From Flavobacterium jejuense (lineage in GTDB: Bacteria > Bacteroidota > Bacteroidia > Flavobacteriales > Flavobacteriaceae), in assembly GCF_006491595.2 (NCBI RefSeq), contig NZ_VEVQ02000001.1, positions 186,001 to 250,000 of the forward strand: a stretch of DNA of 64,000 nt, read 5' to 3'. Shown piece by piece: positions 1 to 12,840 of the stretch (within the stretch, counting starts at the first letter, position 1; every line of letters begins with the position of its first letter). The notes under the pieces were generated by a model that searched no databases, was not told where the DNA came from, and saw nothing but the letters and a program-made list of their open reading frames with translations. A program made the translations under genes and the position numbers.

Positions 1-632
1 AAAAATTAGCCCAAGGTTTTCGTTGTATTAAACTGAAAATAGGAGCTATTGATTTTGAAAAAGAATTGGAATTATTAAGCTTTATTAGACAAAATTTTGA
101 TGAAGATACTATCGAAATTCGAGTGGATGCTAACGGTGCATTTGGTTTAAATGAAGCTTTAAGTAAGATAAATCAATTGTCTGAATATAAAATACATAGT
201 ATTGAGCAACCTATTCAAAAAAACAATACTGACAGTATGGCAGTACTCTGTAAAACAACACCTTTTCCAATTGCATTAGACGAAGAACTAATTGGTGTTT
301 TTGGAATAGAAAATAAAACTAATTTACTAAAAAAAATTCAACCACAATACATTATTTTGAAGCCTAGTTTAGTTGGTGGTTTTAGAGGTACTTTAGAATG
401 GATTTCAATTGCTAAAAAACTAAAAATTCAATGGTGGATTACTTCTGCTTTAGAAAGCAATATAGGTTTAAATGCTATTACGCAATTCACTTACATACTT
501 CAAAATTCATTGCCTCAAGGTTTGGGAACTGGAGGTTTGTATACCAATAATTTTGACTGTCCTCTGGAGATTAAAAAGGGACATATTTGGTATACTAATT
601 CTTTAGATTGGAACATAAAATTATTAGAATAA
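1..632 (+). CDS. menC: o-succinylbenzoate synthase, 3' part (5' end outside window)
   Basis: This is the C-terminal two thirds of an enolase-superfamily enzyme; the frame is open from base 3 and the start lies upstream of the window. Visible superfamily marks, in order, are the KLKIG catalytic-lysine strand at the edge, RVDANGAF and EQP (metal-binding Asp and Glu), ALDEEL, and KPSLVGGF with the second catalytic Lys, then SALESNIG. This arrangement fits MenC, which dehydrates SHCHC to o-succinylbenzoate in cytoplasmic menaquinone synthesis. Other superfamily members, such as dipeptide epimerase, are less likely but cannot be excluded without the N-terminal capping domain and the men neighbours. 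It ends just before a clear hairpin terminator. Confidence 0.82.
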   Translation, partial: KLAQGFRCIKLKIGAIDFEKELELLSFIRQNFDEDTIEIRVDANGAFGLNEALSKINQLSEYKIHSIEQPIQKNNTDSMAVLCKTTPFPIALDEELIGVFGIENKTNLLKKIQPQYIILKPSLVGGFRGTLEWISIAKKLKIQWWITSALESNIGLNAITQFTYILQNSLPQGLGTGGLYTNNFDCPLEIKKGHIWYTNSLDWNIKLLE

Positions 633-640
633 ATAGCAAT

Positions 641-672
641 AAAAAGAGCCAACAGTTTGCTGGCTCTTTTTA
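641..672 (+). terminator. Rho-independent terminator after menC
   Basis: AGAGCCA pairs with TGGCTCT around a short loop, flanked by A and T runs, so it can end transcription of menC and also of the convergent small lipoprotein gene. Confidence 0.85.
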
Positions 673-702
673 TTATTTCGCATTGTAATAGGTTACTATT
701 AT

Positions 703-936
703 TTATTTATCCGTGTCGATGTCAACTTCTGTTTTCTTATCTCCATCTTTAGTAGAGAACTCAACACCATCATTACTGATGCTTAATGAAGTTCCATCGT
801 TTTCTTCAGGTTGTTTTTCTTTTTCTATTACAACTGTTTCCGTCTTTTCAACTACTGTTGGCTCTTCTTTTTGCTCTTTACAACTTACACTAGCTAAAAT
901 CACTAGGGTAGCTATAATTACTGTTACTTTTTTCAT
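703..936 (-). CDS. small lipoprotein, unknown function
   Basis: A 77-residue protein with a lipoprotein signal: a Lys-Lys start, a short hydrophobic stretch and a lipobox ending ASVSC, so the mature protein would begin at Cys19. The mature part is highly charged and low in complexity, rich in Glu, Lys, Thr and Asp, with no recognisable domain. The antisense frame is also open, but the lipobox and the ATG after an A/T-rich leader favour this strand. It probably sits as a monocistronic gene convergent with menC, sharing its terminator. Function not recognised. Confidence 0.6.
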   Translation of the reverse strand: MKKVTVIIATLVILASVSCKEQKEEPTVVEKTETVVIEKEKQPEENDGTSLSISNDGVEFSTKDGDKKTEVDIDTDK

Positions 937-1096
937 ATTATTTGTGTTTAAAATTATAAGTGCAATTTAGGTCGACTTTCAGTAGTTGGTCTTATGACAT
1001 TTATTAAGATTCTTATATAATTACCATTTGAAGTACAAGAGTACTTGAATGTGATAGTAAATGTTTAAATTTGCTGTTGTAAAATGATATTCTATT

Positions 1097-1678
1097 ATGT
1101 TCCGATTAAAATTACCAACAGATCCAAGATGGGCGAATATTGCAGAGGGCAATTTAGAAGAAATTCTAACGGACCACGCTTGGTGTGAACAAAAAGCTGC
1201 TTCAAATGCTATTATGTTAATTACGATGTTACCTGAATTCACTGAAATTACTACTGAATTAATTAAAATAGCAAAGGAAGAATTAGATCATTTCGAACAA
1301 GTACACGAAATTATAAAAGCTAGAGGTTGGGTTTTAGGTCGTGAACGAAAAGATAGTTATGTAAATGACTTGTTTAAATTCATGAAACCAGGTAATCGCA
1401 AACATATTATTGTGGAGCGCATGCTTTTTGCAGCCATGATAGAAGCTAGAAGTTGTGAACGTTTTAAAGTATTATCAGATAATATAAAAGATCAAGATTT
1501 AGCCACTTTTTATCGCGAATTAATGATTTCAGAAGCCAATCATTATACTGCATTTTTACAATTTGCTCATGATTTAGCTGAAAAAGGCTATGATGTAAAG
1601 AAAAGATGGGAAGAATGGTTGGAACACGAAGCTAAAGTAATTGCTAGTTATGGAAATAGCGAAGCGATACATGGATAG
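1097..1678 (+). CDS. miaE: tRNA-(ms2io6A)-hydroxylase-like protein
   Basis: A 193-residue ferritin-like diiron protein of the MiaE family, which hydroxylates the isopentenyl group of ms2i6A37 in tRNA. Diiron ligands are visible as paired motifs: EELDHFEQVH (E..H), IEARSCERF, and SEANHY (ExxH type) on the last core helix. The start ATG gives the usual MFRLKLPTDPRW opening of the family. The stop lies at the left edge of an inverted repeat (AGTGTTCAGTA/TACTGAACACT). The family assignment is firm; whether the organism makes the ms2i6A substrate is not shown here. Confidence 0.88.
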   Translation: MFRLKLPTDPRWANIAEGNLEEILTDHAWCEQKAASNAIMLITMLPEFTEITTELIKIAKEELDHFEQVHEIIKARGWVLGRERKDSYVNDLFKFMKPGNRKHIIVERMLFAAMIEARSCERFKVLSDNIKDQDLATFYRELMISEANHYTAFLQFAHDLAEKGYDVKKRWEEWLEHEAKVIASYGNSEAIHG

Positions 1679-1764
1679 TGTTCAGTATTCAGGTTTAGTT
1701 GGCAGTTTATAGAACTGAGTATAGAAACTGAGCACTGAGAGTTGAACACTCCTTACTGAACACT
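1677..1764. repeat. intergenic inverted repeat AGTGTTCAGTA ... TACTGAACACT
   Basis: Two perfect 11-bp arms (1677-1687 and 1754-1764) enclose 66 bases that contain further ACTGAG/CACTGA-like units. The left arm overlaps the miaE stop; the right arm encodes the last residues and stop of the convergent glycosyltransferase. It may work as a bidirectional end structure or be a dispersed intergenic repeat. Confidence 0.6.
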
Positions 1765-2988
1765 ATTCTTCAACTCAATCCACTTGCTCATGAATTTTGT
1801 ACTTTGCAAGGTTTGATGTTGGAAAACTTGTCCAAGAAAATTTTGATTTCGGTGTTGGTTTAGGTTTGCCAATAAATGATTTATTTTAGTGAAAAATTTG
1901 TTTTCAAATAAAGATTTTTCAAAACGTTTATTGATTAATTCAATTCCATTTTTTTGAGATTGTTGCCAAAGTGTATTATCTTGATACAATTCAATTGCTT
2001 TTTCAATAAAATCTTCATCAGTTGTAGAAATAAATCCATTCCATTCTAGATCACCTTGCATGCCTTCTGAACCTATTTCAGTAGTAACATTGGGTAAACC
2101 AAAAAGCATACTTTCTAATAATTTTCCTTTTAAACCAGCACCATAAGGAATAGGAGCAAGTAATACTTTTACTGAATGAAAGACTGCTTCCACACTTTCA
2201 GCACGACCTCTCACAAGAAAACCTTCTTTTACATTATGCAATTGCTTGGCTTTTTCAGTTGCATACGAACCATAAACATGTAATTCTGCCTCAGGAAGGA
2301 CTTTTTTAATCGATTTCCAGAGTTTTTTTAGCTGTAATACTGTTTGCCAATTCGGTTCGTGTAAAAAGTTACCTATGCTTACAAAATGTTTTCTTTCTGA
2401 AAAAGCAGGAATGCTGTTTAAGAGCGATTTTGAAATTGGGTCAACCAAAAATGGAATATAATGTAAAATAGATGTATCTACTTTGAAAGTTTGGGTTAAC
2501 AATTCCATTTCGTGTTCGGAAATAATCAAACTTAGATCACAACGATATATGGAAGCTAATTCTCTTTTGAAAATATCCGATAAATAATCTTCTGGCTGTA
2601 CTATTCTATCTTGTTTAAATGCAGTTTCTCTAGCTTTTCTAAGAAAGTGTAAATCTTCAGTGTCCAAAATTCGTAAAGCATTCGGACAATTTTTAGCTAC
2701 TCTCCAACCAAATTGTTCTTCTATCATGAATCGATCAAATAATACAATGTTTGGGTTTAATACAGATAGTAAACTATCAAAGCTAGTATCATTTAACTTT
2801 ATAGGATGCGTTGTAATATTTAGGTTTTCTAACGGATAAGAATAATCGGATTTAGATGCAGAAGATAAAAACGTAATTTGATATTGTTCTTTTTGGAACA
2901 TCGCAATTAGTTGAAGCATTCTAGTTCCTGCTGCGGTTGAAGTTGGTTCAGGCCAAACACTTCCAATAATTACTAAATGGTTTTGCAT
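1753..2988 (-). CDS. glycosyltransferase, GT-B fold (GT4/GT1-like)
   Basis: A 411-residue cytosolic glycosyltransferase. The N-terminal Rossmann domain opens with a strand and the loop GSVWPEPTSTAAGTRM, typical of GT-B acceptor domains. The C-terminal donor domain has SIGNFLHEPN, ELHVYG, then LAPIPYGAGLKGKLLESMLFG followed by TTEIGSEGM, equivalent to the family's GxGxK...E(7)E sugar-nucleotide site. It stands alone, convergent with miaE, with no polysaccharide cluster around it, so donor and acceptor cannot be inferred. Its last codons (NSVQ and stop) fall inside the intergenic inverted repeat, suggesting the repeat shaped the C-terminus. Confidence 0.8.
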   Translation of the reverse strand: MQNHLVIIGSVWPEPTSTAAGTRMLQLIAMFQKEQYQITFLSSASKSDYSYPLENLNITTHPIKLNDTSFDSLLSVLNPNIVLFDRFMIEEQFGWRVAKNCPNALRILDTEDLHFLRKARETAFKQDRIVQPEDYLSDIFKRELASIYRCDLSLIISEHEMELLTQTFKVDTSILHYIPFLVDPISKSLLNSIPAFSERKHFVSIGNFLHEPNWQTVLQLKKLWKSIKKVLPEAELHVYGSYATEKAKQLHNVKEGFLVRGRAESVEAVFHSVKVLLAPIPYGAGLKGKLLESMLFGLPNVTTEIGSEGMQGDLEWNGFISTTDEDFIEKAIELYQDNTLWQQSQKNGIELINKRFEKSLFENKFFTKINHLLANLNQHRNQNFLGQVFQHQTLQSTKFMSKWIELKNSVQ

Positions 2989-3142
2989 GAGGCAAATTTA
3001 GAATTTAGAACTTAGATTTTAGAATGAAATGGATGTTTTTTTGGAACAGTGATTAAAAGAAATTAGAGAAATCTTCAATTTTTTTGATTTTTGAAGTTGT
3101 CATTGATTTTTGAAATAGCTTTATATTTACAAAAAAACTATA

Positions 3143-3658
3143 ATGAAATCTTTCTTTAACTATTGTCCGAACTGTAAATCTACTAATTTTACTTTTGAAA
3201 ATAATTTTCGTTTCCATTGTTTAGCTTGTGATTTTACCTATTACCATAATATTGCAGCTGCAGTTGCTGTAGTTTTTACTTATGAAGATAAGATTTTATT
3301 TACTGTTCGTAATGTGGATCCAGATAAAGGAAAGTTAGATTTACCAGGTGGTTTTGTAGATCCAAATGAAACAGCAGAAGAAACTGTTTGTAGAGAAATC
3401 AAAGAAGAATTAGGTTTGGATTTATTGCCTAAAGATTTGAAATACATTACAACATCACCTAACAATTATTTGTACAAAAATGTACCCTACCGAACTATGG
3501 ATGTTTTTTACGAATGTAATTTGCAAACAGATATTGTTTCAGTTGCAGCAAAGGATGAAATTCAAGAATTACTTTGGGTAAAACGCTCTGAAATAGATTT
3601 GGAAAAAATTGGTTTCACTTCTATACGAAAAGTTATTGGTGCTTATTATTGTAATTGA
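3143..3658 (+). CDS. Nudix hydrolase with N-terminal zinc ribbon
   Basis: A 171-residue protein with two CxxC knuckles near the N-terminus (CPNC and CLAC), a zinc ribbon like that of NudC/NUDT12-type enzymes. Then comes a Nudix fold with a complete Nudix box, GGFVDPNETAEE followed by REIKEELGL. It should hydrolyse a nucleoside diphosphate-X substrate such as NADH or ADP-ribose in the cytoplasm; the substrate is not readable from sequence. It lies 7 bases upstream of a histidine kinase gene and is probably co-transcribed with it. Confidence 0.85.
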   Translation: MKSFFNYCPNCKSTNFTFENNFRFHCLACDFTYYHNIAAAVAVVFTYEDKILFTVRNVDPDKGKLDLPGGFVDPNETAEETVCREIKEELGLDLLPKDLKYITTSPNNYLYKNVPYRTMDVFYECNLQTDIVSVAAKDEIQELLWVKRSEIDLEKIGFTSIRKVIGAYYCN

Positions 3659-3665
3659 TTTTTAG

Positions 3666-5471
3666 ATGTTAAAGGTTGCTTTTACTTATATATGTTTATT
3701 CTTTGTTGTTTATTTTGGTTTTTCAAAAGAAGATCCTATATCATTTCAGGTTTCTTATTTAGAGGATTCAAAACGTATTCTTGCTATTGAAGATGTAATT
3801 CAGTTAAAGTTTATTACTCTAGCTGATAAGAGCATGTTGAATTTTGGGTTTACCAAATCTAATATTTGGGTAAAATTAGATTTTGAAAAATTGGTACCTA
3901 ATTCTAAATATAAAATTTTACTAAATACGATTATAAATGACTCAATTGAAGTTTATACAAAAGAATTAAACACTTTAAAAAAAATATTTCTAGGAGAAGC
4001 TTTTTCATCAAAGAGTAGATATTCTACTTACTCTTTTATACCAGAAAAAGAAAATTGTACCATTTATTTTAAGGTTATAGGAAGAGATCAACCTTTATTT
4101 TTCCCATTTGAAGTTTTTAAATTAGAAGATACAGAAAAATCAGATTTGAGTGAATTAGTACTTCTGGGTATTATTTATGGTGTCGTTTTTCTAATTCTAC
4201 TATTAAATTTGGTCTTATATATAAATACTTTAGAACGTATTTACGTATATAGTATGTTTTTTAATGTGTTTTCTTTAGGAGTACTTTTTTATTTTGATGG
4301 CATAATTAAACTCTATTTTTTTCCTAATTCATTGTATTGGAATAATCAATTTATTGCGATTGCATTTTGTGGGAGTTTTATTTTTACAAACTATTATATT
4401 GTTGAATTTTTAAATTTAAGGCAACATAAAAAGAGATTAAGTACATATTTTCTTATGGTAAATAGTGCTTTCTTACTTATTTTAGGAGTGTCTTTCTGGC
4501 ACCCAACAGGATTTAATTGGTATTTAAAGGGTAATTTAGTACTCACTACTGTAGAGGTAATTGTGTTGTCTTACAGTATTCTTTACATTCGAAAAAAAGA
4601 AAAAGATTACTTTTTGATACAACTTCTTAGTGTGATTTGTCTTAATGTATTTGGAACAATTTCTCAATGTACTTTTTCAGGTTTACTACCAATTAATTTT
4701 TTGACAAATCATTCTGTACATTTTGTGATTTTACCACAAATATTGATTCAAGCCTTTGCCCTAGGGAAGCGATTCTCTATTTTAATAAAGCAACAAACAA
4801 TAATGCGTAAGTCGCTTCAAGAATCGGCACAAGTTTATTCTCGTTCCTTAATTAATACCATTGAAGAAGAGAGAAGAAGGCTTTCAAAAGATTTTCATGA
4901 TAGTATAGGTCAAAATTTATTAGTCATTAGAAATGGTATGCTTCGAATTCGAAAAGATAATATTGAAGATAAGCATCGTGAAAAGTTAAATGAATTAATG
5001 TATATTACTTCGGATACTTTAGATGAAATCAGAATGATTTCTCAAAATTTGAGACCTACTATGCTTGATTCGATTGGGTTAACGGCTTCAATAGAAAGTA
5101 TGATTCGTAAGTTAAACGAAGTTGTAGAAATAAATTTTATTTTAGATTGCCCTGAATCTGTTGATAATGTAGTGCAAAGCGAGTTAGAAATTAATATCTA
5201 TCGAATACTTCAAGAACTAACAAACAATAGTATAAAACACGCTAAAGCTCAAAATGTAACTATTGCTATATCTAAAGAAAATGACATACTTTTGATTAGT
5301 GTCACAGATGACGGAATTGGGTTTGATATTAATTTTAAAGACTATATAAATCCAAAGAACGGTCTATCATCTATAAAAGAGCGAACAAATATTCTTAATG
5401 GGAAATTAAATATCGATAGTGTAAAAAATAATGGAACAAAAGTAACTATTTTGATTCCAGTGAATAAATGA
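3666..5471 (+). CDS. sensor histidine kinase, 7TMR-DISM / HisKA_3 type
   Basis: A 601-residue inner-membrane sensor. After a signal sequence, residues about 20-150 form a 7TMR-DISM extracellular (DISMED2-like) beta domain. Residues about 160-370 are seven hydrophobic helices (DISM_7TM). A linker leads to a HisKA_3 dimerisation domain with the motif RRRLSKDFHDSIGQN, phospho-acceptor His411. The C-terminal HATPase has NNSIKHA (N box), DDGIGF (G1) and GLSSIKER (G2). This class pairs with LuxR/NarL-type regulators, and exactly such a gene follows 18 bases later. DISM domains are thought to sense carbohydrate-like ligands, but the signal here is unknown. Confidence 0.9.
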   Translation: MLKVAFTYICLFFVVYFGFSKEDPISFQVSYLEDSKRILAIEDVIQLKFITLADKSMLNFGFTKSNIWVKLDFEKLVPNSKYKILLNTIINDSIEVYTKELNTLKKIFLGEAFSSKSRYSTYSFIPEKENCTIYFKVIGRDQPLFFPFEVFKLEDTEKSDLSELVLLGIIYGVVFLILLLNLVLYINTLERIYVYSMFFNVFSLGVLFYFDGIIKLYFFPNSLYWNNQFIAIAFCGSFIFTNYYIVEFLNLRQHKKRLSTYFLMVNSAFLLILGVSFWHPTGFNWYLKGNLVLTTVEVIVLSYSILYIRKKEKDYFLIQLLSVICLNVFGTISQCTFSGLLPINFLTNHSVHFVILPQILIQAFALGKRFSILIKQQTIMRKSLQESAQVYSRSLINTIEEERRRLSKDFHDSIGQNLLVIRNGMLRIRKDNIEDKHREKLNELMYITSDTLDEIRMISQNLRPTMLDSIGLTASIESMIRKLNEVVEINFILDCPESVDNVVQSELEINIYRILQELTNNSIKHAKAQNVTIAISKENDILLISVTDDGIGFDINFKDYINPKNGLSSIKERTNILNGKLNIDSVKNNGTKVTILIPVNK

Positions 5472-5489
5472 AATAAAACAACAATTATT

Positions 5490-6113
5490 ATGGATAAGCT
5501 AAATGTGCTATTAGTAGACGATCATCCTATTTTTTTAAAAGGACTAGTAGAAGTGATTCAAGATGAATTTCATGATTTTGTAATACATTCTTTTTCATCT
5601 CCTGAACTTGCTTTTGATAGTGCTAAAAGTCTAAAATATAACTTAGCTATTTCAGATTTAGATATGCCAAAAATGAATGGGATATCATTAATTACTGAAT
5701 TAAAAATTTTATATCCAGAGATTTTAACGATACTTTTAACCATGCATAAAGAACAAGATATAATGCGTTCTGCATTAGTAAATGGAATAGATGGCTATGT
5801 ATTAAAAGATGATGTTGTAGATGAACTAGTTATAGCTATAGAAGAAGTATTAAAAGGGAACAAGTATATTTCAGAATTAGAGGTTATAAATGAACAAGAT
5901 GAACAAATTGAAGAATTAAAATCATTAACTAAAACAGAATTATTGGTTTTAAAAGGGATTTCAGATAATAAAACTAGTAAAGAAATAGCCAATGATCTCT
6001 TTGTGAGTTTAAAAACAATTGAAAATCATCGTAATAACATTTCCAGAAAATTACGATTAAAAGGAAGTAATAGTCTTTTGAAATTTGCTATAAACAATAA
6101 AAACCTACTTTAA
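5490..6113 (+). CDS. LuxR/NarL-family response regulator
   Basis: A 207-residue two-domain regulator. The receiver (about 1-125) has the acidic pair VDDHP, the phospho-acceptor Asp56 in SDLDMP, a Thr/switch strand ending LLTMH and the Lys in VLKDD. The LuxR HTH (about 143-205) runs LTKTELLVLKGI ... SKEIANDLFVSLKTIENHR. It is the cognate partner of the DISM kinase directly upstream. Three downstream promoters carry an inverted repeat with half-sites matching the NarL heptamer pattern TACYYMT, and I infer that this protein binds them. A truncated paralogue lies at 7191-7598. Confidence 0.92.
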   Translation: MDKLNVLLVDDHPIFLKGLVEVIQDEFHDFVIHSFSSPELAFDSAKSLKYNLAISDLDMPKMNGISLITELKILYPEILTILLTMHKEQDIMRSALVNGIDGYVLKDDVVDELVIAIEEVLKGNKYISELEVINEQDEQIEELKSLTKTELLVLKGISDNKTSKEIANDLFVSLKTIENHRNNISRKLRLKGSNSLLKFAINNKNLL

Positions 6114-6127
6114 TATATTATGCTAAT

Positions 6128-6145
6128 ATGAGTAAGACTACCTAT
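6128..6145 (+). promoter_or_regulatory. candidate response-regulator operator, copy 1
   Basis: ATGAGTA (6128-6134), four bases, TACCTAT (6139-6145). The two halves are inverted relatives of the NarL-type heptamer. The site ends 22 bases before the -7 element TAGTTTTG at 6168-6175, so its centre falls near -42, where an activator can stand in for a -33 box; no well-spaced -33 TTG is present. Confidence 0.65.
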
Positions 6146-6167
6146 TTTTTTGGTGTAAGGTTTGTAT

Positions 6168-6175
6168 TAGTTTTG
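6168..6175 (+). promoter_or_regulatory. -7 promoter element (TAGTTTTG) of the T9SS cargo gene
   Basis: A perfect match to the Bacteroidota TAnnTTTG -7 consensus, 67 bases before the ATG at 6243, at the same distance from the operator as in the two other copies. Confidence 0.6.
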
Positions 6176-6242
6176 CTTTAAATTATGTAAGTATTTACCA
6201 AGGGTTTACTTGAAAAGAATAGAACGAATATAAATTTAAATC

Positions 6243-6982
6243 ATGAAAAAAAATTACAAAATCCTTATTCTATTAGTTTTTCTTTTTAATTTTTCACTGA
6301 AAAATTATGCTCAGATAGCGGCAACTTATAATTCTAATACTTTTGGAACTTTATCGGGTGTTCCTTTTGCAGTGACAAATATAAATACAATTGGAAATTA
6401 TACTGCAAATATGTCTTGGAATGCTTATGCGGTAGCTCCATTACCTAATTCACCTACTCTACAATATCTTTCAACAGATAATATAGCTGTAACTTTCAAT
6501 ACTCACCCAATTTGAGGTTGTATTTTGTCTATTGGCGAGCTGGTGAATATGCATTTGACCAACCTTTTACTATTTTATCTGGAAATGATATACAGAGTAC
6601 TCTGGGAAATACTATAGTAGTTTCTTCTGCTGGTTCAGGAATAATTGAATTTACTAATCCTATTACAACTTTAAACGTATCAGTCATTTCTGCAACTACT
6701 GGATATATGAGTACAACGTTTGGCTTAAGTGAAACCTTATCAATTGACTCAAATGAAAATATAATTAACAAAATTAAAGTATTTCCAAATCTTTCAACTG
6801 ATTTTATTCAGATAAAGGGCTTTTCTGAAGATGAAAAATATAGTATATATAATATGCTAGGACTAGAGATAATGAAAGGCTTTTGTACTGAAAATAAAAT
6901 GATTAATATTCAAGAATTAGCAAAGGGGATGTATTTTTTTAAAGTAAATAATACACAAAATATTAAATTTTTTAAAGAATAA
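6243..6982 (+). pseudogene. secreted protein with type IX sorting domain, frameshifted
   Basis: Two overlapping frames make one protein of about 245 residues. The first (6243-6513) has a signal peptide ending NYAQ and a short extracellular region. It stops at TGA right after NTHPI. The second frame continues from about 6512 as LRLYFVYWRAGEYAFD and ends in a type IX secretion C-terminal domain (about 80 residues: KIKVFPNLSTDFIQIKG, IYNMLGLEIMKG, LAKGMYFFKV). One extra A in CCCAATTTG would join the frames as HPNLRLYF, so either a one-base deletion or a sequencing error is present. The middle of the protein matches nothing I recognise. It has operator copy 1 upstream. Confidence 0.75.
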
Positions 6983-7027
6983 AAGTATAAAAAAAGCAAG
7001 AGTCTTTTATAATCAAAATTTAAAAAC

Positions 7028-7070
7028 CATAAAAGGATATGACTAAATGATAAGGGCATATTCTTTTATG
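7028..7070 (+). terminator. 14-bp hairpin, probable terminator
   Basis: CATAAAAGGATATG (7028-7041) pairs along its whole length, with one G-U, to CATATTCTTTTATG (7057-7070). It follows the frameshifted secreted-protein gene by 46 bases. No T run comes after it, so a role as an RNA end or stabiliser rather than a classical terminator is possible. Confidence 0.45.
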
Positions 7071-7190
7071 CGTTTATAGAACTAACAAAAATAAAATTCA
7101 TTCAAATAGTTGCACTAAGATGGTTTTAGATTGTAATTAGGCAAATTAAATCTATGATAATATTAAAACCTTAAAAAAAAATATTTATGT

Positions 7191-7598
7191 ATGAAGAATG
7201 AAAAAAAAGTTTTACTGGTAGATAATCATTCCGCTTTTTTAAAAGGGCTTATGGAAGTGATTCAAGAGGAGTTTGTGTTTTTTAATTTATTTTCTTTTTC
7301 CTCATCTGAGGAAGCCTTGTATAGTGCAAAAGAAAACAAATATGACTTAGCCATTTTTGATCTAGAAATGGCTGAAATTAATGGTATTTCATTTCATAAA
7401 GAGCTAAAGTTACTAAATCCTGAAATACTATCGATACTTTTAACTTTACACAAAGAACAAGATATTTTGCAATCAGTTTTTGAAAAAGGACTTGAAGGTT
7501 TTGTTTTTAAAGATAATATTCTTGATGAATTAGTAATTGCCATAAAAGAAGTGCTAAAAGGGAATAAATATTTTTCAAAATTAGATGCTTTAAATTAG
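7191..7598 (+). CDS. stand-alone receiver, truncated paralogue of the LuxR regulator
   Basis: 135 residues aligning along their length with the receiver of the regulator at 5490 (shared segments include FLKGL.EVIQ.EF, LAI.DLEM, LVIAI.EVLKGNKY). The phospho-acceptor Asp57 (IFDLEM) is kept, but the acidic pair is reduced to DN and the Met-Pro after the Asp became Met-Ala. The ORF stops where the linker to the HTH should start. About 30 bases on, one frame reads FTRKLGF, similar to the ISRKLRLKG tail of the full-length HTH, so the DNA-binding domain looks deleted. It could compete for phosphate from the kinase or be decaying. Confidence 0.75.
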   Translation: MKNEKKVLLVDNHSAFLKGLMEVIQEEFVFFNLFSFSSSEEALYSAKENKYDLAIFDLEMAEINGISFHKELKLLNPEILSILLTLHKEQDILQSVFEKGLEGFVFKDNILDELVIAIKEVLKGNKYFSKLDALN

Positions 7599-7689
7599 TA
7601 ATGTTAAAAAAGCAATAGTAAGCATGGTTTACTAGAAAATTAGGTTTTACTATAGATTTTAAAAGAAGAAGTGGTATACTTCAAAATGA

Positions 7690-7726
7690 AAAAGTACAAT
7701 TATAAGATATAGTTGTACTTTTTTTA
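7690..7726 (+). terminator. terminator in repeat copy A
   Basis: AAAAGTACAA pairs with TTGTACTTTT over a loop, followed by a T run; it ends the transcript of the stand-alone receiver gene. Confidence 0.75.
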
Positions 7727-7754
7727 TTTAAAAAAGTCACATAAAATCTAAAGA

Positions 7755-7772
7755 ATGAGTAGGAATACCTAT
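7755..7772 (+). promoter_or_regulatory. candidate response-regulator operator, copy 2
   Basis: ATGAGTA (7755-7761), GGAA, TACCTAT (7766-7772). The -7-like element TTATTTTG (7795-7802; one mismatch to TAnnTTTG) begins 22 bases after the site, the same spacing as in copies 1 and 3, although the bases between differ. Confidence 0.65.
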
Positions 7773-7974
7773 TTTAATTTATCCATACATTCTTTTATTT
7801 TGTCTTGTAAGTCTATTAACCAGTATTAGTAACCAATTGTAATGAAATAACGTTATAAACGGATGCGAAATAGAAGATTTACAAAGTGTACCTTATATTA
7901 ATAGTATTTGTTTATTTTTTTTCCATTCCTCAATAATGTAATTATTTCAAAATAATTATTAAACAAATTTAAGA

Positions 7975-9630
7975 ATGAAAAACAAAGATGAAAATCAAAT
8001 TTTACTTCAACAAGAAGAAAATTTAAACGAACAAAGAAAAAGTTATTGGACACCTAAAAGTATTACATTCGAAGATGTACAATTGTCTGACAATGGAATA
8101 AGTCCTGATCAAAGAAAAAGAGCGTTAAATCAACTTTCAGAATATGTTAAAGATTCTCAAGAAAATTTTTTAGGCTATCAAGCTACCCAAAGGATGGATT
8201 TTTCAGAATTTTCTAAATACTTAGATGTATCTATAAATAATCTAGGTGATTCCTTTTCAAGTCCTAAATGGGATAGTAATCAAGTACCTCCTGATGGTTA
8301 TTTTAGAATGAACGATAAGTGGATTGAGCGAGCCGTATTAGACTATTATGCAAAATTATGGAATGCAAAAAGCCCAAGACTTGTAGAAGAAGATAAAGAA
8401 GAAGGTTGGCTTGAAACTTATTGGGGATATATTTTGACTATGGGAAGTACAGAAGGTAATCTTCTCGCTATGAGAAATGGTAGAGATTATCTCAATGGTA
8501 CTTTATTGCAATATGATCCTAAACCTCAAACAAATACAAATAATACTTTTGTAAATAAATCACTTGAAGAAGTAGGCTATGTTCAAGCAGTTCAAGACGA
8601 AACAAATCTAAACGCACTTACTCCAGTACTTTTTTATTCAGAAGCCACTCATTACTCTATAAAAAAGTTAGCTCAAGTTTTACAAATAAAAACCTTTGCG
8701 CAAATTGCTATAGAAAGAGGATTTGAAAACCCTTTCACAGAAGATAGAAAATGGCCTAATACAATTCCAATAGATAAAACGGGAGCTATTAAGGTTGATG
8801 AATTGGTTAAATATGCTACATTTTTTATACAAAAAGGTTTTCCTATTCTAGTGAATTTTAATTATGGAACAACTTGGACAGGAGCTTATGATGATGTAGG
8901 AGAAGCTGTTGCGAAATTAAAGCCAGTTTTAGATAGATTTGGAATGTTTGATAGAAAAATCAGAATTAGAGGAAAAGAATATGAAAGAAATGGCTTTTGG
9001 TATCATGTTGATGGTGCTCTTGGTGCAGCATTTGTCCCTTTTATAAAAAATGATGTTGAAGATGGTGATGAAATCTCAAAAGAGTTTCCAGATTTTGATT
9101 TTAAACTGCATGTTCATTCCATCTCTACAAGTGGTCACAAGTGGGTAGGAATGCCATGGCCATGTGGTATCTATATGACAAAAAATAAATATTTAATTTC
9201 AAATGATGTGCCAGATTATGTGGGTTCGCTAGATTCTACACTCGCAGGATCGCGTAATGGATTTTCTGCGTTATTAATGTGGGATTATTTATCTAAAAGA
9301 TCTAAAGATGATTTAAAAGCAGAGGTGCTAAATGCATTGAAAACTGTAGAATATACTAAAGGAGAATTAGAAAAAATATATCCAAGAAAAGTTTTACATG
9401 TACCAGGCTCGTTAGTTGTTATTTTCCCAAAACCAACAAAAATTGACATCATTAAGAAGTATTCTCTTGCATCTTCAGGTAATTTTTCTCATATTTTCAT
9501 TATGAGACATGTAACTGAAGAGATGATCGACAATTTGATAATAGATTTAAAGAAGAATCTATTAAAAGAAGAACCTTTATTAACCAGTAAAACAGATAAT
9601 GATACTGTTGACCATAGTTTTGGCTGGTAA
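7975..9630 (+). CDS. PLP-dependent group II amino-acid decarboxylase family protein
   Basis: A 551-residue fold-type I PLP enzyme. TMGSTEGN binds the cofactor phosphate, WYHVDGALGAA has the Asp that contacts the pyridine nitrogen, and STSGHKWVGMPWP carries the Schiff-base Lys389. The length and the SxHK motif fit the histidine/aromatic group II decarboxylases, but I cannot assign a substrate, and unusual inserts (about residues 180-200) and a charged N-terminus set it apart from well-known members. It is monocistronic, has operator copy 2 upstream and lies between two copies of an 86-base repeat, so it looks like a regulated single-gene cassette. Confidence 0.82.
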   Translation: MKNKDENQILLQQEENLNEQRKSYWTPKSITFEDVQLSDNGISPDQRKRALNQLSEYVKDSQENFLGYQATQRMDFSEFSKYLDVSINNLGDSFSSPKWDSNQVPPDGYFRMNDKWIERAVLDYYAKLWNAKSPRLVEEDKEEGWLETYWGYILTMGSTEGNLLAMRNGRDYLNGTLLQYDPKPQTNTNNTFVNKSLEEVGYVQAVQDETNLNALTPVLFYSEATHYSIKKLAQVLQIKTFAQIAIERGFENPFTEDRKWPNTIPIDKTGAIKVDELVKYATFFIQKGFPILVNFNYGTTWTGAYDDVGEAVAKLKPVLDRFGMFDRKIRIRGKEYERNGFWYHVDGALGAAFVPFIKNDVEDGDEISKEFPDFDFKLHVHSISTSGHKWVGMPWPCGIYMTKNKYLISNDVPDYVGSLDSTLAGSRNGFSALLMWDYLSKRSKDDLKAEVLNALKTVEYTKGELEKIYPRKVLHVPGSLVVIFPKPTKIDIIKKYSLASSGNFSHIFIMRHVTEEMIDNLIIDLKKNLLKEEPLLTSKTDNDTVDHSFGW

Positions 9631-9658
9631 TAAATTATAAGTGAAATAGAATAAATTT

Positions 9659-9698
9659 AAAAGTACAATTATAAGATATAGTTGTACTTTTTTTTTAT
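9659..9698 (+). terminator. terminator in repeat copy B
   Basis: AAAAGTACAA (9659-9668) pairs with TTGTACTTTT (9682-9691), followed by T residues; it ends the decarboxylase transcript. Confidence 0.75.
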
Positions 9699-9723
9699 AA
9701 AAAAGTCTCGTAAAATCTAAAGA

Positions 9724-9741
9724 ATGAGTAGGAATACCTAT
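9724..9741 (+). promoter_or_regulatory. candidate response-regulator operator, copy 3
   Basis: ATGAGTA (9724-9730), GGAA, TACCTAT (9735-9741), again 22 bases before a -7-like element TTCCTTTG (9764-9771; one mismatch). Confidence 0.65.
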
Positions 9742-9802
9742 TTCATTTTTGGAGTTTAGTTTGTTCCTTTGAAGTATGAAATTCTTATTAATAAGTCTTT
9801 AA

Positions 9803-9894
9803 TTTATAAGTAGGTAGGCCACCTAAAAATTAAAAGTAGAGTTCAGAAACTACTAAATAAACGAAGCGGAATCCGAAAAGCTATATGAGTAGGT
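9803..9894 (+). promoter_or_regulatory. cluster of GTAG/CTAC half-sites in the 5' leader
   Basis: Between the promoter and the gene at 9917 lie ATAAGTAGGTAGG with ACCTA nearby, an AGTAG...CTACT inverted repeat (9835-9854) and ATGAGTAGGT (9885-9894). They resemble single halves of the operator. They may be weak extra binding sites or part of the leader RNA structure. Confidence 0.3.
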
Positions 9895-9916
9895 AAAACA
9901 AACAAATAAAAATATA

Positions 9917-10339
9917 ATGGCAAATTTAAGAAAATTCTTTTGGGAAGGTCTTCAATCAGGTATGAAAGTTGATTATTACACTAATAGATGGCCTCGTGTA
10001 GGAAATGGAAAAGCTGAAGTTATTGAAACATTAAGAGTGAAGTTATCAGGAGAGATTAGACTAGGAGGAATATTTACGGTTGAAATCATAATGCCTGACG
10101 AAAGTCTAAGAGGATTTTGTACTTTAATAGTTAACGGCGAAGCTGCAAATGACTGTGCGTATTTAGTTGAGGGAAATAAATTAAATATTAATCATCCTCA
10201 ATCACAAATTCAAATTCATGCAAATGACAAAAAATGGACATGGGCGAAATCTAGTCATCCACAAGGTTTACCTTGGATGGGAATGTGGCCAAGTGATATG
10301 AAAATGGATCATGAAGATAATTTTGGTGATGTCGAATAG
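9917..10339 (+). CDS. conserved-looking 140-residue protein, unknown function
   Basis: Not recognised. It has no signal peptide or membrane segment. The N-terminus (FFWEGLQSGMKVDYYTNRWPR) is aromatic and basic, the middle is predicted beta-rich with one Cys pair (GFCTLIVNGEAANDCAY), and the C-terminal third is rich in Trp, His and Met (KKWTWAKSSHPQG, PWMGMWPSDMKMDHED). The His/Met/Asp-rich tail could bind a metal, but this is speculation. It is transcribed alone from a promoter with operator copy 3 and ends at a strong terminator. Position suggests a shared response with the decarboxylase and the secreted protein. Confidence 0.7.
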   Translation: MANLRKFFWEGLQSGMKVDYYTNRWPRVGNGKAEVIETLRVKLSGEIRLGGIFTVEIIMPDESLRGFCTLIVNGEAANDCAYLVEGNKLNINHPQSQIQIHANDKKWTWAKSSHPQGLPWMGMWPSDMKMDHEDNFGDVE

Positions 10340-10360: not shown

Positions 10361-10390
10361 AAGTCTCAAGTTTTTTCTTGAGACTTTTTT
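10361..10390 (+). terminator. Rho-independent terminator
   Basis: AAGTCTCAAG pairs with CTTGAGACTT followed by a T run; it separates the regulon region from the convergent YkgJ-family gene. Confidence 0.88.
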
Positions 10391-11072: not shown

Positions 11073-12182
11073 TTAGCGAATAGAATCTATTTTTTGATTT
11101 ACTACTGGTTTGGTAACAGATAAAGGAGAGGTTGTTGTTTTGGGTTTGCTATTTTTAGCTTTAACAGGAATTAAAATTTCTGTAATAAATTCAGAGGGTT
11201 TTGTGGTATTAGAACGGTCTTTTTTATGAATTTCAGTAATTTTATAATCTTGGTCTAAAATATATTCTTCATTTTGCTTTATAAAAGCTAAGGCTTTCTT
11301 CCAAGCTTCTTTCCTATGACTATAACTTCCTTTTAAAGTTATTTTTAAGGCACTATATTCTTCTTGGTAATGACCCGTTATATCACTCAAAGGTGTAGTT
11401 AAAATCTCTTCTTCTATTGGTATACAAGCTGCAAAATATAAAGGTTCATTATTAATGTTCCAAGTCGAAAATTGGATAAAAGCATCACCATTAATAATAA
11501 TATCATTTTGTTTTACAAATTTTTGTAAGTTTTGTAAAGCTTTGTTACTTCTTAATGGAAATTCAGCCAAACTACAAGAATCTTTTTGTTGTATATTATA
11601 ACTGGCATGGTTATTAACCACTCCATTAATTAAAATATTGAAATTACTTATTTCGTTAACTAAATAGTCATTAATTTTTTCAAGTCCTTCTTCTATTTTT
11701 GAAGTGTATATGAATTCGTTTCCACCTTTTAAGAATGCAAATAATTTCTCATTAAAGGTTAAGTTCCCTTTTATTCCCCAAATTACTTTTGTTTCTCCTT
11801 TTTCTTCTTGAAACTTCCAATATAAACTGTATTTTTTGTCGCCTTCTTGTTCTAATTGGTAAATAGAATCATTACTAAAAAGGTGTGTGGTTGTTATTTT
11901 AGTTTCATCCCATTTTATAAACGCTCCTTCACCGTTAGTAATTTCAGAATGTGAAGTTTTTGTACTAAAATTTAATTCAGGATACCAACTATTCCAATTT
12001 TTATAGTCATTAATATATTGAAAAATAGTGTTTTTCGGACTAGCTATTGTTTTTTCACTTTTGTAATTAAATTCATTAGGTTGGGTAGCAATAAATACAA
12101 TGAAAGCAATAGATAGTAGTAATAAAAGTAGAAAAATATATTTTGCTATTCTCATTTTTTTTGGAAATTTAGGGTTTTCCAA
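11073..12182 (-). CDS. membrane-anchored SRPBCC plus effector-binding (GyrI-like) protein
   Basis: A 369-residue protein with one N-terminal transmembrane helix (about 12-32). Residues about 38-180 form an SRPBCC/START-like ligand pocket (KTIASPKNTIFQYINDYKNW, WKFQEEKGETKVIWGIKG). Residues about 215-340 resemble the AraC effector-binding/GyrI fold, including HYQEEYSALKITLKGSY. The C-terminal 30 residues are Lys/Pro/Thr-rich. The same two-domain layout occurs in other Bacteroidota; no ligand is known to me. It is followed by nothing on its strand and preceded 10 bases upstream by a small membrane protein gene, probably in the same transcript. Confidence 0.75.
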   Translation of the reverse strand: MENPKFPKKMRIAKYIFLLLLLLSIAFIVFIATQPNEFNYKSEKTIASPKNTIFQYINDYKNWNSWYPELNFSTKTSHSEITNGEGAFIKWDETKITTTHLFSNDSIYQLEQEGDKKYSLYWKFQEEKGETKVIWGIKGNLTFNEKLFAFLKGGNEFIYTSKIEEGLEKINDYLVNEISNFNILINGVVNNHASYNIQQKDSCSLAEFPLRSNKALQNLQKFVKQNDIIINGDAFIQFSTWNINNEPLYFAACIPIEEEILTTPLSDITGHYQEEYSALKITLKGSYSHRKEAWKKALAFIKQNEEYILDQDYKITEIHKKDRSNTTKPSEFITEILIPVKAKNSKPKTTTSPLSVTKPVVNQKIDSIR

Positions 12183-12192
12183 ATATATAAAA

Positions 12193-12381
12193 TTAATCCT
12201 TTAAATAGAATTTTATAAAAAATAATAAGCCTATAAATAGAAGAAAGCCGAATAATATCCAATAAATGCCTTTATATTGAGATTTTAGCTCTTTTAGATC
12301 TCTGCGATACACATATATCATTACAAAAATAAAGGTAATAACAAAAAATAAAGCAAAATACCATTGACCTGTTGAAAACAT
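12193..12381 (-). CDS. small two-helix membrane protein
   Basis: 62 residues with two hydrophobic helices (about 7-25 and 40-59) joined by a charged loop (YRRDLKELKSQYKG). It is located just upstream of the SRPBCC protein on the same strand and likely co-transcribed. No function recognised; the topology resembles small membrane proteins commonly found beside metabolic genes in flavobacteria. Confidence 0.65.
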   Translation of the reverse strand: MFSTGQWYFALFFVITFIFVMIYVYRRDLKELKSQYKGIYWILFGFLLFIGLLFFIKFYLKD

Positions 12382-12456
12382 GATTATAAATTTTTTACAA
12401 AAGTAAGAAATGAAGTAGGCATTTAAATAAATTTACATGAATAAAATAGTGTAAAA

Positions 12457-12840
12457 ATGAAAAAACAATTAGAAGCAGTTGCTTTATTTCATAAAACGTA
12501 TGGCTTAGGAATTAGCAATGAGGTAAAAGCAAATATCAGTGAACAAAAAAAACAACTTCGTTTTGAATTAATGAAAGAGGAAAATGAAGAATATTTAGAA
12601 GCCGTTCAAAATAATGATATTATTGAAATAGCCGATGCTTTAGGCGATATGTTATATATTTTATGTGGTACTATTTTAGAACATGGTTTACAACATAAAA
12701 TTGAAGAAGTATTTGATGAAATTCAAAGAAGTAACATGAGTAAACTAGGTGAGGATGGAAAACCAATTTACAGAGAAGACGGAAAAGTAATGAAAGGGCC
12801 TAATTACTTTAAACCTAATTTTGAACTAATACTTAAATAG
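12457..12840 (+). CDS. MazG-like nucleotide pyrophosphohydrolase
   Basis: 127 residues, all-alpha NTP-PPase fold. The metal-binding motifs are ELMKEENEEYLEA (ExxEE type) and IADALGDMLYILCG (ExxD type), typical of the PRA-PH/MazG-like family that splits NTPs or dNTPs into the monophosphate and pyrophosphate. The C-terminal part (SNMSKLGEDGKPIYREDGKV) is shared with phage and bacterial house-cleaning members. Monocistronic, ending at a bidirectional terminator. Confidence 0.82.
   Translation: MKKQLEAVALFHKTYGLGISNEVKANISEQKKQLRFELMKEENEEYLEAVQNNDIIEIADALGDMLYILCGTILEHGLQHKIEEVFDEIQRSNMSKLGEDGKPIYREDGKVMKGPNYFKPNFELILK

Follow-up and report, generated by a model that had tools for sequence, protein, structure and literature searches.

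A 64,000-nucleotide stretch of the Flavobacterium jejuense genome (contig NZ_VEVQ02000001.1, positions 186,001 to 250,000; hereafter the window, whose own numbering is used) carries a sensor histidine kinase gene, an adjoining NarL/LuxR-type response regulator gene and three promoters that share the operator-like sequence ATGAGTA-N4-TACCTAT. A compact two-component regulon with its own regulator-operator pair is well supported by comparison of sequences, and the locus is probably a small, largely self-contained regulon in which the kinase-regulator pair activates the three operator-bearing promoters. As proposed, the 7TMR-DISM histidine kinase would phosphorylate the adjoining regulator, a dimer of which would bind the 18-bp operator at about −52 to −35, beside sigma-A RNA polymerase, and so activate three weak promoters in a row. 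Promoter 1 would serve a protein secreted by the type IX secretion system (T9SS), its gene now frameshifted, and probably a receiver-only copy of the regulator; promoter 2 an amino-acid decarboxylase; and promoter 3 a DUF805 RNA leader followed by a 140-residue orphan protein. The operator-promoter unit would have spread by duplication beside the regulator; which genes follow the unit differs between strains. The main surprise of the locus is the set of ATACGTAT promoters in the same genome to which it led.

Operators and promoter geometry

An earlier note on this DNA, drawn from its letters, had described three identical operators, each followed at a fixed distance by a −7 element. All three sites are exact matches to ATGAGTA-N4-TACCTAT on the plus strand (Table 1); the pattern appeared in none of 100 shuffles of the window, and the genome-wide search that the note had called for returned only these three copies in the whole assembly (4,753,655 bases, 74 contigs), all at promoter spacing and with no randomly placed extras. 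Identity holds for the 14 fixed bases and not for the four bases between the halves: operator 1 has AGAC there, and operators 2 and 3 have GGAA. The spacing was likewise borne out, with TnnnTTTG found 22 nt downstream of every operator and spacers that differ even between copies 2 and 3, despite the repeat common to both. Triples of random window positions shared a TnnnTTTG offset (10–35 nt) once in 200,000 draws and never at offset 22, and none of 200,000 triples drawn from intergenic positions of the locus shared any offset. A chance origin of the operator trio is ruled out by the shuffles and these random-triple tests. Operators 2 and 3 each form part of one copy of a 97-nt direct repeat (92% identity between its copies) and so have a common origin, and the likeness of operator 1 to them spans 21 nt only. 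The hairpin of the repeat was left unflagged by a terminator scan, for which 10361–10386, 3′ of the gene for the 140-residue protein, was the sole place found, and its Rfam matches, to SpF36, were all sub-threshold.

The three promoters resemble the TAnnTTTG promoters of Bacteroidetes in presenting TnnnTTTG at a fixed distance and differ from those described in the available parts of PMC9723704 and PMC7366714 in the 18-bp operator placed between −52 and −35 and in having two boxes without A at position 2. The flavobacterial sigma-A feature TAnnTTTG is thus complete in one of the three boxes, the other two reading TTnnTTTG, and the position of the box is borrowed from F. psychrophilum, in which it spans −12 to −5 (PMC9723704). 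Because 22 nt separate operator and box, the operator would fall at −52 to −35, with its centre at −43.5. The further suggestion that the site replaces a −33 box is unsupported; for F. johnsoniae, a published passage reports failure to identify any −33 motif.

Such a position would be that of a class II activator. Repression of the promoters by the bound regulator, or action both ways, through blocking of RNA polymerase near −35, is considered unlikely. The operator does abut the presumed site of sigma region 4, a position that does not discriminate on its own; yet the deviation of two of the three −7 boxes from TAnnTTTG suits weak promoters in need of help, and class II activators of the LuxR kind usually sit near −42.

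The NarL operator consensus is TACYYMT-N2-AKRRGTA (7-2-7). Its TACYYMT heptamer is matched by TACCTAT and also by ATGAGTA when complemented, as had been noted before, in the reverse order: the arrangement here is AKRRGTA-N4-TACYYMT, with halves 4 bp apart, unlike 7-2-7. LuxR/TraR-type operators are dyads of 18–20 bp that are centred near −42 and contact polymerase. The 18-bp 7-4-7 dyad, centred at about −43.5 beside the promoter, is reminiscent of these in geometry and position and may contact polymerase. In contrast to LuxR/TraR systems, the protein presumed to bind is a response regulator of the phosphorylation type rather than an acyl-homoserine-lactone receptor, and the −7 box marks the promoter as a Bacteroidetes one. 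No operator of such kind was found described for a Bacteroidota LuxR-type response regulator in the literature covered, which included few subscription papers.

Allowing three mismatches and requiring the box, a search of the source genome gave 30 matches, as compared to 8 in a reversed control. Sorted by hand, these comprised the 3 known sites, 13 members of the ATACGTAT family and 14 others; further members of the ATGAGTA regulon are not claimed among the latter, the excess over control being modest. Among 198 other genomes of the genus, ATGAGTA-N4-TACCTAT had a single exact match in 7, versus 9 with the reversed pattern, which amounts to chance.

Regulator orthologues and the presumed binder

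The regulator has the features of the NarL/FixJ family, namely a receiver and a C-terminal GerE helix-turn-helix (HTH) domain with a HisKA_3 kinase gene adjoining, and is in these respects, as in half-sites that fit TACYYMT, like the LuxR-type regulators NarL, DevR, VraR and EvgA. Unlike NarL/FixJ systems, the exact sites are confined to the regulator's own locus. A peptide scan of a genome contig collection returned at least 40 relatives of the regulator, and among those listed were orthologues at 82% identity in Flavobacterium sp. J27 (L187), 58% in a Cytophagales metagenome-assembled genome (MAG; L188) and 54% in a Sphingobacteriales MAG (L189). The kinase gene adjoins the regulator gene in all three, its product being 80% identical to the window kinase in J27, 44–45% in the Sphingobacteriales MAG and 42% (593 positions) in the Cytophagales one. 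An operator adjoins the pair in each of the three genomes. The J27 operator (ATGAGTAGGACTACCTAT) is exact and lies 14 nt past the regulator gene and 22 nt before the box TTTCTTTG. Directly 5′ of the kinase gene lie both the Sphingobacteriales operator (ATGAATAACAGTACCTAT; one mismatch, box TATTTTTA at 22 nt) and the Cytophagales operator (TTAAGTAACAATACCTAT; two mismatches, box TAATTTTG at 21 nt). In 60 Markov-random copies of each locus, such sites (at most two mismatches) averaged 0 for J27, 0.017 for L188 and 0 for L189. The recognition-helix region, S-[IL]-KTI-[EQ]-NHR-[NH]-NIS, is kept in all three orthologues.

The regulator encoded at 5490, named in the earlier note as the obvious candidate, is well supported as the presumed binder, because the operator adjoins its orthologues in three orders, because the assembly holds no further exact sites and because the genome has a further operator family, alike in geometry and spacing, that is tied to another LuxR-type operon (see below). 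It is very unlikely that some other LuxR-type regulator uses the operators. Response regulators are numerous in the genome (81 first-look candidates), which also holds that second family of the same geometry, but the exact operators lie only beside the 5490 regulator, and operator-like sites accompany its orthologues in other orders.

Several observations weigh against the regulon as proposed. The operator position is by itself compatible with repression, and operators 2 and 3 are not independent, since both lie inside the 97-nt repeat. The putative orthologue footprint rests on three genomes, of which the two-mismatch site of L188 is the weakest, because loci L190–L226 (714,834 strand-bases) hold four sites with at most two mismatches, the box not being required. 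Among the distant loci L190–L203, a three-mismatch site with a box was found only in L193. In the window, the best operator match 5′ of the kinase gene (3500–3700) has four mismatches; with no operator there, the autoregulation suggested in L188 and L189 is not kept. In those two loci (L188:4158 and L189:4145) the kinase start codon (GTG and ATG, respectively; read by eye) stands about 4 nt past the −7 box, a distance that would imply leaderless kinase mRNAs.

No regulator orthologue was found at E 1e-40 in the 198 other genomes of the genus (best 15 first-look candidates per genome scored) or at E 1e-42 in 396 other genomes of the family (best 7 per genome scored).

The L193 site (L193:6651), in a Chlorobiota MAG, has a TATATTTG box at 22 nt and lies 26 nt past the gene for a 41%-identical regulator; it may be taken as a hint.

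Genes behind the operators

Alignment by blastn matched window positions 1–6147 to J27 532–6658 (80%), 9724–9909 to 6639–6835 (84%) and 11151–12824 to 7609–9279 (80%). Since these blocks flank it, the 3.6 kb between operators 1 and 3 either represents additional DNA in the window or has been deleted in J27, and since the blocks break there, both edges of the difference lie at operators. Breaks exactly at operators, together with the placement of copies 2 and 3 in a 97-nt duplicate, would also be expected of recombination or insertion remnants without a regulatory role, whose distance to the −7 box was inherited through duplication. We regard this as highly improbable: copy 1, alike over so short a stretch, yet keeps its box, the spacers differ, and two further orders each have just one site of this kind, box included, 5′ of the kinase gene.

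Promoter 3 and its DUF805 leader are kept in J27, with similarity stopping no more than 10 nt from the start codon. The open reading frame (ORF) that follows encodes 140 residues in the window and 162 in J27 (L187:6844–7329), and the two proteins gave no convincing alignment (raw score 32). Operator and regulator evidently stay together into distant relatives, and the genes behind the operator turn over. The regulon of three genes that had been envisaged (secreted protein, decarboxylase, 140-residue protein) stands as a compact regulon and needs correction in its members: the first gene is frameshifted and followed by the receiver-only copy, and the third is not kept in J27.

Table 1. Features of the regulon locus in window coordinates.
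Feature	Position	Strand	Basis or remark
Sensor histidine kinase, 601 residues	3666..5471	+	Pfam: 7TMR-DISM extracellular and 7TM domains, HisKA_3 (PF07730), HATPase_c (PF02518)
NarL/LuxR-type response regulator, 207 residues	5490..6113	+	Pfam: receiver (PF00072), GerE HTH (PF00196)
Operator 1	6128..6145	+	14 nt past regulator stop codon
−7 box TAGTTTTG, promoter 1	6168..6175	+	read from sequence
Secreted protein, T9SS C-terminal sorting domain	6243..6982	+	Pfam; two ORFs (6243–6515, 6512–6982)
Receiver-only regulator copy, no HTH	7191..7598	+	60% amino-acid identity over query 4–139
97-nt direct repeat, copy a	7684..7780	+	AT-rich hairpin, T run, operator 2
Operator 2	7755..7772	+	exact pattern match
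−7 box TTATTTTG, promoter 2	7795..7802	+	read from sequence
Pyridoxal phosphate-dependent amino-acid decarboxylase, 551 residues	7975..9630	+	Pfam PF00282; behind operator 2
97-nt direct repeat, copy b	9653..9749	+	AT-rich hairpin, T run, operator 3
Operator 3	9724..9741	+	exact pattern match
−7 box TTCCTTTG, promoter 3	9764..9771	+	read from sequence
DUF805 RNA (RF03081), 5′ leader of promoter 3	9831..9899	+	72.7 bits; gathering score 51.1
140-residue orphan protein	9917..10339	+	behind operator 3 and DUF805 leader

The frameshift in the secreted-protein gene, near 6512, breaks the ORF into two frames and reflects either a pseudogene or an assembly error. The receiver-only copy, between operators 1 and 2, probably belongs to the first transcription unit; it matches the J27 regulator gene at 68% DNA identity, as would be expected if regulator and operator had been duplicated in tandem long ago. 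The second acidic residue of its DD pair is N, and no HTH remnant above shuffles was detected 3′ of it.

The decarboxylase scored 224.3 bits against NCBIfam PRK02769, a histidine decarboxylase equivalog, which is short of the cut-off of 305; its nearest solved relative is the L-methionine decarboxylase 7cif (E 2.8e-93). No orthologue was returned by a peptide scan of the contig collection. Thirteen of the 198 other genomes of the genus gave matches, all partial and 35–43% identical, and all 78 matching plasmid records were below 60% identity (44.5% for the best among the matches listed).

The DUF805 RNA match covers the whole Rfam model, and the J27 leader (L187:6757–6825), at 70.7 bits, is likewise above the gathering score. 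Folding free energies of both leaders were no better than those of shuffles, which leaves the Rfam model as the sole basis for the call. The ORFs behind the RNA differ between the window and J27, neither having a Pfam match above cut-off. At 9885–9893, the operator half ATGAGTAGG recurs in the conserved 3′ part of the RNA, where the Rfam consensus reads AuAuGAGUAGGA; this may be coincidence. The 140-residue orphan also lacks an NCBIfam match, was found only in its own genome among 299 family genomes (E 0.001) and had no plasmid match (E 0.01). Similar segments of the LKADNxxxLSR type in the 162-residue J27 protein look beta-trefoil-like by eye, with no Pfam support. Single-sequence structure models of the two proteins were useless (mean predicted local distance difference test scores of 40.8 for the 140-residue protein and 29.7 for the J27 protein).

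A second operator family and the defence-gene matches behind it

A relaxed pattern, AT..GTA-N4-TAC..AT with a box at 22 nt, had 14 sites in the source genome (G000) versus 0 in a reversed control, comprising the three window operators and 11 sites of a ATACGTAT-N2-ATACGTAT family. With at most two mismatches, 36 such palindromes were found, as compared to 1 in the control. They are mostly paired, 32–33 nt apart, and make up 18 promoters by hand count (loci L058–L070 and L085–L087, e.g., L086:4196, L059:7366 and L058:3184). A TAnnTTT[GA] box follows the proximal palindrome at exactly 22 nt in 17 of the 18 (12 with G, 5 with A), and in the eighteenth the proximal site is degenerate and the box is at 23. 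Family and window operators share the 7-4-7 geometry and the 22-nt spacing. The strict pattern is present in 4 of the 198 genus genomes (11, 6, 6 and 3 sites; control 0). The ATACGTAT pattern had no match in viral contigs. Genome G061 has four near-identical ATACGTAT-palindrome promoters with 23-nt spacing (C1:1605408, 2788118 and 3662593; C30:274), which may belong to a mobile element.

A half-site search at spacings of 18–26 gave 62 matches in 33 of the 198 genomes, 33 of them at 22. The 22 matches without TACGTA were about as numerous as in the control (20) and spread over spacings 18–25, with only operator 1 at 22; the peak at 22 nt therefore consists of the ATACGTAT family and operator 1, and a wider half-site family at this spacing was rejected.

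One ATACGTAT promoter heads a conserved operon encoding a protein of about 104 residues, a membrane protein of about 212 residues, and a second kinase-LuxR pair (L065/L068 in G000; L140, L141 and L151–L153). Judging from gene order, the G000 operon is divided between the ends of two contigs (C7 and C21); its small protein has no Pfam match. At E 1e-45 the regulator was found in 22 of 199 genomes, G000 included. Eighteen loci were examined, from 17 of these genomes besides G000 and from G016, whose regulator is below that threshold. A palindrome (at most two mismatches) was counted if within 700 nt 5′ of the small gene, within 400 nt past the regulator gene or upstream of the operon, only the regulator side being covered in G134, G034 and G189. 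Nine loci had one (G061, G149, G034, G189, G082, G037, G081, G115 and G016), not every one with a box at 22, and the other nine, among them the close orthologues G170 and G134, had none. The second kinase-LuxR pair likely regulates the ATACGTAT promoters, the link being good and incomplete.

PADLOC was run on 17 proteins from ATACGTAT promoters, leaving out promoters L065, L068, L070 and L061:6412. Behind 5 of the 18 promoters lie genes that scored 100 bits or more with a defence model, namely RT-UG5-nitrilase (820 bits), HamA and HamB of Hachiman (436 and 799), Cas9 (208), AbiU (110) and, as the second gene behind its promoter, PD-Lambda-2_B (116). Weaker matches comprised a subtilase (89 bits), a caspase-like (49) and a trypsin-like protein (25), and 8 of the 17 proteins had no match. 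Three proteins taken from other genomes were also run: one had matches of 61 bits at most (AriA), and the other two matched nothing. Ten window ORFs served as a control; two of them matched, at 44.9 and 19.6 bits, and no score reached 100.

Control of CRISPR by two-component or LuxR-family regulators is described for Serratia, Streptococcus mutans and Pseudomonas aeruginosa, and also for RcsB-BglJ (PMC10013973, in the parts available). A regulon of the present kind was not found described in the literature consulted, including the available parts of PMC5395568 and PMC10013973, the latter of which contains no word beginning with Bacteroid.

With about even confidence, we propose that LuxR-type two-component regulators with 7-4-7 operators 22 nt from a −7 box run regulons of exchangeable cargo in the genus. 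The ATACGTAT system, with operators paired 33 nt apart, would jointly control anti-phage defence (Cas9, Hachiman, UG5-nitrilase reverse transcriptase, AbiU-like and PD-Lambda-2-like genes among 18 promoters) and its own operon, and the window locus would be a small sister system in which operator, promoter and RNA leader stay fixed and the cargo that follows them is swapped. Sequence alone has yielded a putative regulator-operator pair whose sites match across three orders, together with targets and a predicted position. In the ATACGTAT promoter set, a single operator precedes several unrelated defence systems, which probably share one two-component system; if this is true, coordinated control of phage defence would become directly testable in flavobacteria.

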